Shown here in pieces: positions 10,502 to 38,215 of a stretch of DNA of 42,076 nt (position 1 is the first letter of the stretch; the number at the start of each line of letters is the position of its first letter). The notes under the pieces were generated by a model. The model saw only the letters and a list, made by a program, of their open reading frames with translations. It made no database searches and had not been told where the DNA came from. Both the position numbers and the translations under genes were made by a program. The DNA is from Rhodoferax sp. (lineage in GTDB: Bacteria > Pseudomonadota > Gammaproteobacteria > Burkholderiales > Burkholderiaceae_C). Location: the NCBI GenBank assembly GCA_008015235.1, contig SSFF01000026.1:1-42076 (forward strand). The letters are read 5' to 3'.

Positions 10502-13500
10502 ATGGAGGGTTTTACCCAGCCGCCCACCATGCCCGTCGCACCTGACCACGAAGGCCCCTACCTGGGCAGCCACCTGCGCAACAGCATCAGCATCCGCGGG
10601 GCGCGCACGCACAACCTCAAAAACCTCGATCTCGACATTCCGCGCAACCAGCTGGTGGTAATCACCGGCCTGTCGGGTTCGGGCAAGTCCAGCCTAGCGT
10701 TTGACACGCTGTACGCCGAAGGCCAGCGCCGCTATGTGGAGAGCCTGTCCACCTACGCGCGCCAGTTCCTGCAGATGATGGACAAGCCCGACGTGGACGT
10801 GATCGAAGGCCTGTCGCCCGCCATCAGCATCGAGCAGAAGGCCACCAGCCACAACCCGCGCTCCACGGTGGGCACGGTGACCGAAATCCACGACTACCTG
10901 CGCCTGCTGTTCGCCCGCGCCGGCACCCCCTACTGCCCCGACCATGGACTGCCGCTCCAAAGCCAAACCGTCAGCCAGATGGTCGACGCCGTGCTGGCGC
11001 TTCCGGAAGGCACCCGCATCATGGTGCTGGCGCCAGTGGCACGGGAAAAGAAAGGCGAGTTCACGGAGCTGTTTGCCGACATGCAGGCCCGCGGCTACGT
11101 GCGCTTCCGCATCAACGGCCAGGTGGTGGAGGCGCAGGATCTGCCTGCACTCAAGAAAACCGAGAAGCACGACATCGACGTGGTAGTGGACCGCCTCAAG
11201 GTGCGCCATGCGCCCTTGGATGCGTCGGCGCCGGAGTACGCCGAGTTCACCAGCGTACGCCAGCGCCTGGCCGAGAGCTTCGAGTCCGCCCTCGACATTG
11301 CCGCCGGGCGTGCCATTTGCTATGAAATGGATAGTGAACTACGCAGTCCTGATGCGGGCCAGAACCCCAAAGAACACTTGTTCAATGCCAAGTTCGCGTG
11401 CCCGGTGTGCAGCTACTCGATTGCCGAACTGGAGCCGCGCCTGTTTTCCTTCAACTCCCCCGTTGGGGCCTGCCCAGGCTGCGACGGTTTGGGCCAGCAG
11501 GATTTCTTCGACCCGCAGCGCGTGGTCGCCTTCCCCAGCTTGAGCCTGGGCGGCGGCGCCATCAAGGGCTGGGACCGGCGCAACGGCTACTACTTTGCCA
11601 TGCTGCAAAGCCTGGCCGCGCACTACCGCTTCGACATCGAAGCACCCTTCGAGTCGCTGTCAGCGCCTGTGCAGCAGGCGGTGCTGTACGGCTCGGGCGA
11701 GGAAGAGATTGCCTTCACCTACGTGCTCGACAGCGGGGCCAATGCGGGCAAAAAAGTCAAGAAAAAGCACCCGTTCGAAGGCGTCATTCCCAACATGCAG
11801 CGCCGCTACCGCGAGACCGACTCGGCCCTGGTGCGCGAAGACCTGGCACGCCTGCGCGCCACCCAGCCCTGCCCCGACTGCGCGGGCACGCGCCTGAAGC
11901 GCGAAGCGCGCTTTGTGCGCATTGGCGAAGGGGCGCAGGCCCGTGCCATTTACGAGGTCAGCCACGTCACGCTGGGCGAATGCCTGGACTATTTCTCGCG
12001 GCTGCACATGACGGGCGCCAAGGGCGACATCGCGGCCAAGGTAGTGCGCGAAATCACTTTGCGCCTGAAGTTCCTCAACGACGTGGGCCTGAACTACCTG
12101 AGCCTGGACCGCAGCGCCGAAACCCTGTCGGGCGGCGAGAGCCAGCGCATCCGCCTGGCGAGCCAGATCGGCTCGGGCCTGACCGGGGTGATGTACGTGC
12201 TGGACGAACCCAGCATTGGTCTGCACCAGCGTGACAACGACCGCCTGATCGGCACCCTGCAGCACCTGCGCGACCTGGGCAACAGCGTGCTGGTGGTCGA
12301 GCACGACGAAGACATGATGCGCGCCGCCGACCACATCATCGACCTCGGCCCCGGCGCCGGTGTGCACGGCGGGCGCGTCACCGCGCAAGGCACGTTTGAC
12401 GAGGTCAAGGCCAACCCGAACTCCCCCACCGGCCAGTACCTGGCGGGTACGCGCCACATTGCCGTGCCCAAGAAACGCACACCTTGGCTGCCAGTGCTTG
12501 AAATCGCTGCGGAGACACCACGCAAAAGCGGCTCCGGCAAAGGCGCTCCGAGCAAGGCCGCGCAGGCCTGGGAAGAGCGCCAGGCCGAGCACCGCGCCAC
12601 CCAGGGCAGCCTGCAGGCCCTGCGCGTGGTCGACGCCCACGGCCACAACCTGAAGAACGTCAGCGTCGAGTTTCCCGTGGGCCTGTTCACCTGCGTCACT
12701 GGCGTGTCCGGTTCGGGCAAATCCACGCTGGTCAATGACACCCTGTACGCCGCCGTGGCACGCCAGCTCTACCGCGCCCACGAGGAACCGGCACCGCACC
12801 TGCGCGTGGAGGGCATGGCCTATTTCGACAAGGTCATCAACGTCGACCAGAGTCCGATCGGGCGCACGCCGCGCTCCAACCCGGCCACCTACACCGGCCT
12901 GTTCACCCCCATCCGCGAACTGATGGCCGAGGTCCCCACCGCGCGCGAGCGCGGCTATGGCGCAGGGCGCTTTTCCTTCAACGTGACCGGGGGCCGCTGC
13001 GAGGCCTGCCAGGGCGACGGCGTGGTCAAGGTGGAAATGCACTTCCTGCCCGACGTGTACGTGCCTTGCGACGTGTGCCAGGGCCAGCGCTACAACCGCG
13101 AAACCCTGGAAGTGCAGTACAAGGGCCGCAACATCGCCCAGATCCTGGAGATGACCGTGGACGTGGCGCTGGACTTCTTCCAGGCCGTGCCCAGCATCGC
13201 GCGCAAGCTGCAGACGCTGATGGACGTGGGCTTGTCCTACATCCGCCTGGGCCAGTCGGCCACCACGCTCTCGGGCGGCGAGGCCCAGCGCGTGAAGCTC
13301 GCACTAGAACTCTCCAAACGCGACACCGGCCGCACGCTCTACATACTGGACGAACCCACCACCGGACTGCACTTTGCCGACATCGAGCTATTGCTCAAAG
13401 TGCTGCACCAACTGCGCGACGCCGGCAACACCATCGTTGTCATCGAACACAACCTGGACGTCATCAAGACTGCCGACTGGCTCATCGACATGGGGCCCGA

Positions 13501-13618
13501 GGGCGGCGGCGGCGGCGGCACCGTGGTCGGTGTGGGCACACCCGAAGCACTGGCCGCCAACCCGGCCAGCCATACCGGGCGCTACTTGCACAATGTTTTG
13601 ACACGCCTGCCCGCATAA
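10502..13618 (+). CDS. uvrA: Excinuclease ABC subunit A
   Basis: This is the damage-recognition ATPase of nucleotide excision repair, with two ABC modules. The first Walker A is GLSGSGKSS (about residue 56) and its signature is LSGGESQRIRLASQIG (about 542). The second Walker A is GVSGSGKST (about 735) and its signature is LSGGEAQRVKLALEL (about 923). Zinc-binding cysteine pairs are CPVC/CPGC (about 299 and 324) and CEAC/CDVC (about 833 and 857). The length of 1,038 residues exceeds E. coli's 940, mainly from a lysine/alanine-rich insert before the second ABC half (encoded around 12470-12610). The start may instead be the ATG at 10529; neither has an ideal ribosome site. A 42-bp repeat is embedded in frame at 11318-11359, and another copy supplies the stop codon. 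Confidence 0.97.
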   Translation: MEGFTQPPTMPVAPDHEGPYLGSHLRNSISIRGARTHNLKNLDLDIPRNQLVVITGLSGSGKSSLAFDTLYAEGQRRYVESLSTYARQFLQMMDKPDVDVIEGLSPAISIEQKATSHNPRSTVGTVTEIHDYLRLLFARAGTPYCPDHGLPLQSQTVSQMVDAVLALPEGTRIMVLAPVAREKKGEFTELFADMQARGYVRFRINGQVVEAQDLPALKKTEKHDIDVVVDRLKVRHAPLDASAPEYAEFTSVRQRLAESFESALDIAAGRAICYEMDSELRSPDAGQNPKEHLFNAKFACPVCSYSIAELEPRLFSFNSPVGACPGCDGLGQQDFFDPQRVVAFPSLSLGGGAIKGWDRRNGYYFAMLQSLAAHYRFDIEAPFESLSAPVQQAVLYGSGEEEIAFTYVLDSGANAGKKVKKKHPFEGVIPNMQRRYRETDSALVREDLARLRATQPCPDCAGTRLKREARFVRIGEGAQARAIYEVSHVTLGECLDYFSRLHMTGAKGDIAAKVVREITLRLKFLNDVGLNYLSLDRSAETLSGGESQRIRLASQIGSGLTGVMYVLDEPSIGLHQRDNDRLIGTLQHLRDLGNSVLVVEHDEDMMRAADHIIDLGPGAGVHGGRVTAQGTFDEVKANPNSPTGQYLAGTRHIAVPKKRTPWLPVLEIAAETPRKSGSGKGAPSKAAQAWEERQAEHRATQGSLQALRVVDAHGHNLKNVSVEFPVGLFTCVTGVSGSGKSTLVNDTLYAAVARQLYRAHEEPAPHLRVEGMAYFDKVINVDQSPIGRTPRSNPATYTGLFTPIRELMAEVPTARERGYGAGRFSFNVTGGRCEACQGDGVVKVEMHFLPDVYVPCDVCQGQRYNRETLEVQYKGRNIAQILEMTVDVALDFFQAVPSIARKLQTLMDVGLSYIRLGQSATTLSGGEAQRVKLALELSKRDTGRTLYILDEPTTGLHFADIELLLKVLHQLRDAGNTIVVIEHNLDVIKTADWLIDMGPEGGGGGGTVVGVGTPEALAANPASHTGRYLHNVLTRLPA
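11318..11359 (-). repeat. 42-bp palindrome-tailed element, copy 1 (inside uvrA, in frame)
   Basis: On the minus strand this reads GCCCGC, 17 bases, CACTAT, 7 bases, ATAGCA, with the same spacing as the other copies. It begins exactly at a uvrA codon boundary and encodes 14 residues, CYEMDSELRSPDAG. Compared with E. coli UvrA as I remember it, the loop before the first zinc cysteine pair is about eight residues longer here. Confidence 0.65.
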
Positions 13619-13650
13619 AATCTGCGCATATAGCTATTTTTTTGGTAGCA
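13609..13650 (+). repeat. 42-bp palindrome-tailed element, copy 2 (overlaps uvrA stop)
   Basis: GCCCGC (13609-13614), 17 bases, AGCTAT (13632-13637), 7 bases, GTAGCA (13645-13650). The stop codon TAA of uvrA (13616-13618) lies inside the element. The terminal inverted repeat could form a small hairpin followed by an A-rich stretch, 24 bases before the next gene. Confidence 0.75.
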
Positions 13651-38166: not shown

Positions 38167-38173
38167 GGCTCTT

Positions 38174-38215
38174 GCCCGCGTATAGATTGCGGAACTAGCT
38201 ATTAATTAAATAGCA
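38174..38215 (+). repeat. 42-bp palindrome-tailed element, copy 5 (between REC-GGDEF gene and cheB)
   Basis: GCCCGC (38174-38179), 17 bases, AGCTAT (38197-38202), 7 bases, ATAGCA (38210-38215). The terminal arms extend to AGCTATTAATTAAATAGC, a good small hairpin. It fills most of the 51-base gap between two convergent genes and ends three bases from the cheB stop. Confidence 0.75.

Follow-up and report, generated by a model that had tools for sequence, protein, structure and literature searches.

A 68-bp interspersed motif with lineage dialects in Rhodoferax and other Comamonadaceae: a candidate DNA uptake sequence

A stretch of 42,076 nucleotides from Rhodoferax sp. (NCBI GenBank assembly GCA_008015235.1, contig SSFF01000026.1, positions 1 to 42,076, forward strand), referred to here as the window, raises the question of why one short unit, GCCCGC-N17-AGCTAT-N7-ATAGCA, recurs along it in both orientations, within genes and between them. 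The first-pass annotation had named five copies of 42 bp and two weaker relatives, and had taken their fixed length as the sign of a replicated or selected unit, to which it assigned no function. The analysis reported here suggests that the motif is most likely a DNA uptake sequence, i.e., a 'self' label on free DNA in natural transformation, because its marks agree with those of the uptake signal sequences (USS) of Pasteurellaceae and the DNA uptake sequences (DUS) of Neisseriaceae. The fuller form of this proposal, to which we give an even chance, is that a third self-DNA uptake code arose independently in the Comamonadaceae and is the longest known (~68 bp); its dyad half stays invariant, whereas its other half is respelled in place throughout the genome, giving dialects that would act as barriers to genetic exchange among species.

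Which copies belong to the element was decided with a position matrix trained on 842 kb of the own genome (G000; 40 stretches and the window, 23% of 3.65 Mb), with positions numbered from the first base of the 42-bp core. A literal search for the pattern with at most 3 mismatches gives 5 matches in the window vs. 0.02 expected; only those at 29599 and 38174 are exact, the copy at 13609 has 1 mismatch and that at 11318 has 2. The copy at 22965 lies more than 3 mismatches from the pattern and is absent from these matches, and the literal match at 33588 (minus) is rejected as a member by the matrix. According to the matrix, the 42-bp unit forms only the core; the full motif spans about 68 bp (about −22 to +45), with WTT at −22, AAAT at −12, GGC at −7 and GCCCGC at 1 on the left, an A/T stretch at 11–15 and TGCGCA at 15 in the middle, and AGCTAY at 24, WWW at 32–34 and RTAGCA at 37 on the right. 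The claimed fixed-length unit thus keeps its constant spacing, but its length is ~68 bp rather than 42. The window holds six copies at 47–74 bits and two weak ones (25.8 and 19.2 bits). The five named copies, 11318−, 13609+, 22965+, 29599+ and 38174+, are all recovered (47.8–73.5 bits); of the two supposed weaker relatives, the one at 30130 (minus) becomes a full member at 47.4 bits, whereas the one placed at 33355 stays weak. The copies are as follows.

38151..38218, plus strand: 68-bp element, 73.5 bits, core 38174–38215; touches the ends of both convergent neighbours, a GGDEF response regulator gene (plus) and cheB (minus).
29576..29643, plus strand: 68-bp element, 65.4 bits, core 29599–29640; immediately upstream of the predicted start of a Sua5-like gene (28617–29567, minus), or within its first codons if the longer open reading frame (to 29669) is taken.
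13586..13653, plus strand: 68-bp element, 53.5 bits, core 13609–13650; overlaps the 3′ end of uvrA, ahead of a GGDEF gene.
11315..11382, minus strand: 68-bp element, 50.3 bits, core 11318–11359; within uvrA.
22942..23009, plus strand: 68-bp element, 47.8 bits, core 22965–23006; at the 5′ end of a TsaD-family gene (22207–22944, minus).
30127..30194, minus strand: 68-bp element, 47.4 bits, core 30130–30171; within purK.
33362..33429, minus strand: weak or decayed member, 25.8 bits, best core frame 33365–33406.
28911..28978, plus strand: weak match, 19.2 bits, core from 28934, within the Sua5-like gene; chance or a relic.

The motif is over-represented on both strands of the own genome. The literal pattern has 191 matches on each strand of the 3.65 Mb, whereas the reversed-pattern control has 0 and 1, and the matrix scan of the 842 kb gave 130 matches of at least 12 bits, with none of even 6 bits in the reversed sequence. 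Copies in the scanned part average about 1 per 6.5 kb, from which 560 copies per genome are estimated. When the two halves were scored apart, 108 of the 114 left-half matches had their right half at the standard distance; other offsets between −12 and +12 yielded a right half for none of the 114. It is this half-by-half scoring that tests length; the gap-free alignment of 103 copies is no such test, since these were chosen by ungapped scans. A profile count well above its reversed-sequence control and a conserved length, together with 382 genome-wide pattern matches against 1, bear out the first-pass view of a non-chance unit, and the evidence favours a selected unit over a replicated one.

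Is the conserved signal one of RNA or of DNA? The small hairpin suspected at first is half right: the dyad is there, but in 108 copies of at least 40 bits its arms, read at positions 29/37, vary independently (T-A 30, C-A 26, T-G 21, C-G 21), so that a paired stem is not kept and the dyad is better described as two DNA half-sites. A kept RNA hairpin was excluded on this absence of covariation. Placement bears on the same question. With genes called by a crude caller (coding fraction 0.88), 55 of the 130 copies are intergenic, 26 lie across a gene end and 49 fall within genes. The 81 copies outside genes divide into 40 between co-directional genes (20 per orientation), 29 between convergent genes and 12 between divergent genes (10 plus, 2 minus); the 382 background gaps of at least 60 bp comprise 226, 52 and 104, respectively. 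The convergent share is thus 29/81 for copies vs. 52/382 for gaps, and the median distance to gene 3′ ends is 9 bp. Both of these would suit a transcribed hairpin serving as a terminator or as a 3′-end stabiliser of mRNA. That explanation is nevertheless very improbable: besides the missing covariation, orientations are equal between co-directional genes, 33 of the 108 copies of at least 40 bits are within predicted genes, and the window has no Rfam match at gathering cut-offs. A Rho-independent terminator is further opposed by the absence from the matrix of a T run downstream of the dyad.

The same 108 copies look like separate realisations of one DNA-level motif. Their mean pairwise identity is 0.543, a value set by column composition, and its spread (0.065) exceeds that expected under independence (0.054) only slightly. 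The 20 best pairs average 0.746 vs. 0.704 under independence (maximum 0.714 in 50 shuffles), the best pair reaches 0.81, and near-identical recent copies are absent among the 108. Recent amplification was ruled out by the mean of 54% and best pair of 81%. Clear dependencies between columns are found mainly for adjacent A/T columns. The motif carries 56.6 bits of information, compared with 13.8 required to specify that number of sites, and its A/T content has a period near 11 bp that is equally strong in 18 of 2000 shuffles.

Across genomes, the distribution was followed with a sequence-only model built from the 103 copies, which scores at most 104 candidates per genome in the genus and 34 in the family; 'rich' denotes a genome at or near saturation, and a genome without matches could carry a different, unseen dialect. 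Genomes are either motif-rich or nearly empty. Among 30 same-genus genomes, 13 are saturated (104/104), G023 has 24, and the other 16 have at most 4. Of 150 genomes sampled from the family, 62, belonging to 51 of 115 genera, have at least one match and 44 reach at least 30 of the 34 scored, whereas 19 genomes of other families have none under the model. On a pyruvate-kinase tree, two poor groups (G008; G006, G014 and G018) are nested among rich species, which we read as losses.

The element also keeps its place between species while its spelling changes. At the dnaX region (own-genome copy C30:306706), a counterpart is found in 10 of 12 same-genus genomes, and at mutS (C32:224663) in 9 of 11, that of G022 being weak at 14.8 bits; the element-free genomes G014 and G018 have a counterpart at neither. 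By eye, and with few copies per genome, the counterparts match the prevailing spelling of their own genome in 8/10 cases at dnaX, with G001 and G015 as exceptions, and in 9/9 at mutS. There are lineage dialects around a common core: the first half differs, and GCT-N10-TAGC is constant. The variable part reads GCCCGC in G000, mostly GCGCCCG/GCGCTCG in G001, G007 and G034, GCCCTCG in G003, G012 and G022, and mostly GCCCCCG in G015, G026 and G048; that of G009 is a shifted CAGGCCGTGGATAGTGCGGGAG. The dialect scan masked positions −8 to 10, where most differences lie, so that differences there were not selected for. Named mutS loci with the motif come from Rhodoferax, Polaromonas, Curvibacter, Acidovorax, Simplicispira and others, with the element at the same place across several genera and mostly without indels; with the family sample, these loci support the association with Comamonadaceae made at first pass. 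The mutS loci of Variovorax, Hydrogenophaga and named Limnohabitans gave no match at 16 bits.

Several smaller observations concern the motif itself. By eye, the variable half is an inverted repeat of its own in some dialects (L182, L184 and Polaromonas, e.g., L190), as GCGTA..TACGC, GCGC..GCGC or GCCC..GGGC; its symmetry axis moves between dialects, and the G000 dialect is not symmetric there. Several G048 copies (L104, L138, L139) are without the TGCGC box at 15–19 and keep the remainder. A second, weaker motif-like site lies near the other end of mutS in several species (L141:11569–11636, L151:12472–12539, L156:12484–12551 and L123:688–755) and is either a second orthologous element or a common protein stretch.

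Whether in-gene copies arose by substitution or by insertion separates a selected motif from an ancient miniature mobile element (like repetitive extragenic palindromes or miniature inverted-repeat transposable elements) that spread by copying, was long fixed and is now decaying or domesticated. After removal of 2 duplicates (L171/L124, L218/L120) from 91 rows, 89 distinct MutS orthologues comprise 42 with the motif, 7 intermediate and 40 without. An indel within residues 375–398 occurs in 6/42, 1/7 and 11/40, respectively; 36/42 bearers and 29/40 non-bearers have none, and the indels of non-bearers span 1–8 residues only. In a third-codon test at mutS, bearers score 0.737 (rank 1 of 83 windows) and non-bearers 0.527 (rank 76), a comparison which is partly circular, as bearers were picked by motif score, and which used 90 rows including one duplicated genome. 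PurK has no insertion at the element relative to three solved homologues, GcvP has no element-sized gap at the site, and the gaps at the site in glutamate racemase (murI; 3 residues only) and GcvT (4 + 3 residues) are below element size. DnaX is uninformative here, its copy lying in a variable linker.

Other copies read differently. In MoeA, the copy is a translated loop (AKLAASPH...SYEKNSN in G000) that is missing from E. coli MoeA; this segment has 41–72 residues in 119 of 120 close relatives and 26 in P0110, the one relative without the loop, and a similar loop peptide is seen in many of 60 relatives displayed. The GluQRS copy lies at extra residues relative to distant homologues, the UvrA copy lies where an alignment to Bacillus-type UvrA shows a gap of 11 residues, and 5 of the 42 MutS bearers (L123, L125, L166, L206, L214) have 15–32 additional residues bordering the site. 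(In four species, L123, L124, L125 and L166, the extra MutS residues by the site number 31–32.) The extra residues at MoeA, GluQRS and UvrA indicate, from the alignments, that some copies came with extra DNA, anciently. These cases and the fixed length are what a mobile element would predict. The lack of near-identical copies, the absence of element-sized gaps at purK, gcvP, murI, gcvT and most mutS orthologues, and the occupation of identical sites by different dialects in distant species speak against it, and we consider this origin improbable, albeit less so than a transcribed hairpin.

The distribution along the chromosome brings in a further explanation. The coefficient of variation of spacing is 0.71 on contig C30, below the random 95% range (0.76–1.23), and 0.86 on C32, inside it (0.75–1.26); the variance/mean ratio in 20-kb bins is 0.50 and 0.63, so that bin counts are under-dispersed on both. 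Density climbs with GC, the lowest class holding 0.33 and the highest 2.48 copies per 10 kb (Spearman 0.41; 168 bins of 5 kb), a preference for GC-rich DNA despite the A/T-rich motif. Low-GC DNA is frequently foreign. Among annotated host proteins of in-gene copies (NCBIfam) are MutS, MutL (two copies), UvrA, AddA, DnaX and DNA-deoxyinosine glycosylase; in this small sample, 6 of 29 in-gene proteins serve genome maintenance vs. 0 of 20 length-weighted controls, with 2 of 33 in-gene entries left out for spanning a stretch border and 20 of 30 drawn control genes submitted. Genome-maintenance genes carry more DUS. The copies at PFK, TrmB and SppA, counted as 'in-gene', precede the part matched by the family and may in fact be intergenic. 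No replication polarity or domain was found in G007 (49/52 pattern matches; Kolmogorov–Smirnov p 0.63; strand runs 25 vs. 25.5 expected).

A chromosomal site for a nucleoid-organising or segregation protein, wrapping or bending DNA at several hundred places, with dialects following changes in the protein, would account for the dyad with helically phased A/T tracts, the under-dispersed placing, the gene-end preference and the RNA stem that is not kept; nor does it call for any dependence on competence genes, and none was seen for ComEC and PilQ. It is the strongest of the rivals, yet we hold it to be unlikely, as the motif has about four times the information needed for finding the sites, G007 is without origin/terminus polarity or domain, and scarcity in low-GC DNA and loss from whole genomes are easier under uptake.

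Under the uptake reading, a putative receptor belonging to the type IV pilus/competence machine would make contact with both the GCT-N10-TAGC dyad and the half that varies between dialects, aided by A/T tracts about one helical turn apart; biased uptake followed by homologous recombination would then enrich the motif and keep it wherever it is tolerated. The own genome has a type IV pilus and ComEC. Of the pilin-like proteins in 8 genomes, exactly three families occur in 5/5 rich and 0/3 poor genomes, and all belong to one locus (G000 C23; L254:490–2309) of three co-located minor pilins, GspH-, PilV- and MshO-like, which we take to resemble an MSHA-type pilus locus. The structure model of the GspH-like pilin has a pLDDT (predicted local distance difference test) of 81.6. 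In the genus contrast of 14 rich genomes (G023 counted) and 16 poor ones, the MshO-like pilin is present in 12/14 rich (not G009, G029) and 1/16 poor (G006), giving a Fisher p of 1.7e-5 in which kinship is ignored; on the tree, there are 3 independent contrasts only, which is not significant.

Several results weigh against the uptake reading. ComEC does not track richness (11/14 rich vs. 15/16 poor), and the rich genomes in which it was not detected are G012 and G020 (88% complete) and G026 (99% complete), where its absence is an assembly gap, a recent loss of competence or evidence against uptake. PilQ is over the cut-off in 10/14 rich vs. 15/16 poor genomes. As a general receptor, the MshO-like minor pilin was rejected, being present in 5/44 rich vs. 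26/106 other genomes of the family. The largest annotated motif-free gap (C30, 268–295 kb, GC 0.565) contains mostly ordinary genes, several of them housekeeping among 10 proteins examined (acetolactate synthase, NAD synthase, pyrophosphatases and similar), which argues against reading low GC as foreign. The extra residues at MoeA, GluQRS, UvrA and five MutS bearers belong here as well, as do a copy density (~1 per 6.5 kb) and a length (68 bp) that depart from those of USS/DUS (~1 per kb, far shorter).

Sequence-labelled uptake is described for two bacterial families in the available parts of the sources cited here, to which all statements drawn from them are limited, and why such labelling evolves is debated. 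As of 2006, uptake sequences were unknown beyond Pasteurellaceae and Neisseriaceae (PMC1626085), and among the matches listed there was no report of one in Comamonadaceae, subscription literature being mostly outside the scope. In Acidovorax, A. temperans and A. facilis are naturally transformable, as is Verminephrobacter eiseniae, via type IV pili; tested Acidovorax showed no detectable transformation by DNA of another Acidovorax species, and sequence selectivity was suspected with no sequence named (PMC4212676). We infer that the present motif may be that sequence; the element is present in one Acidovorax locus (L172). If the uptake reading is true, a large environmental family would add a third, independent case, and its several dialects, together with rich and empty species in one genus, would make origin, switching and loss of uptake specificity directly testable; the case would also offer a possible explanation for species-selective transformation in Acidovorax and a sequence handle for transforming Comamonadaceae.

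Elsewhere in the window, at 126–3734, a 1202-aa open reading frame has cadherin-like, VWA, PA14 and RTX calcium-binding domains.

Among the closest described systems is a motif pair of Polaromonas naphthalenivorans CJ2, ATAGCT(N)22CAAAAG, with 125 copies, of which 101 are intergenic and 34 lie between convergent genes; it has no function assigned, and R. ferrireducens is the genome with most pairs (PMC5217627). As its reverse complement, the pair reads CTTTTG-N22-AGCTAT, which shares the register of positions −4..1 and 24..29 of the present motif, and it probably belongs to the same family as the Rhodoferax element; the available part of that report gives the pair only, and no full motif, dialects, orthologous sites or uptake reading (PMC5217627). 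The Beta-proteobacterial repeat element (BRE) is likewise short and interspersed and occurs in Betaproteobacteria, Rhodoferax and Polaromonas among them; it is set apart here by description only (75–91 bp in Bordetella, 69% GC, often tandem, 1–29 copies per genome; PMC3110155).

With DUS, the element shares dialects around an invariant core (CTG in DUS, GCT...TAGC here) and a tie to gene ends and terminators; DUS, however, are of 10–12 bp without flanking motifs and have the known receptor ComP (PMC3630211), whereas the receptor of the present element is putative. USS are marked by a lack of orientation bias, by a spacing more regular than chance would give, by A/T segments set one helical turn from each other, by an origin through mutation within genes rather than insertion and by clade-specific cores; for USS/DUS, the density is put at roughly 1 per kb (PMC1626085). 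As in the USS of Haemophilus influenzae and other Pasteurellaceae, copy number is high, orientation is unbiased, copies occur in genes, and a core of clade-specific type is accompanied by A/T-rich segments about one helical turn apart; in spacing, the Rhodoferax element is more regular than random on C30 and within the random range on C32. We note three differences between USS and the Rhodoferax element (PMC1626085). First, USS have a 9-bp core, whereas the element is of about 68 bp and consists of a variable half and a dyad half. Second, USS occur about once per kb, whereas the element occurs about once per 6.5 kb. Third, USS are reported not to be insertions, whereas some in-gene copies of the element stand at residues absent from distant homologues.

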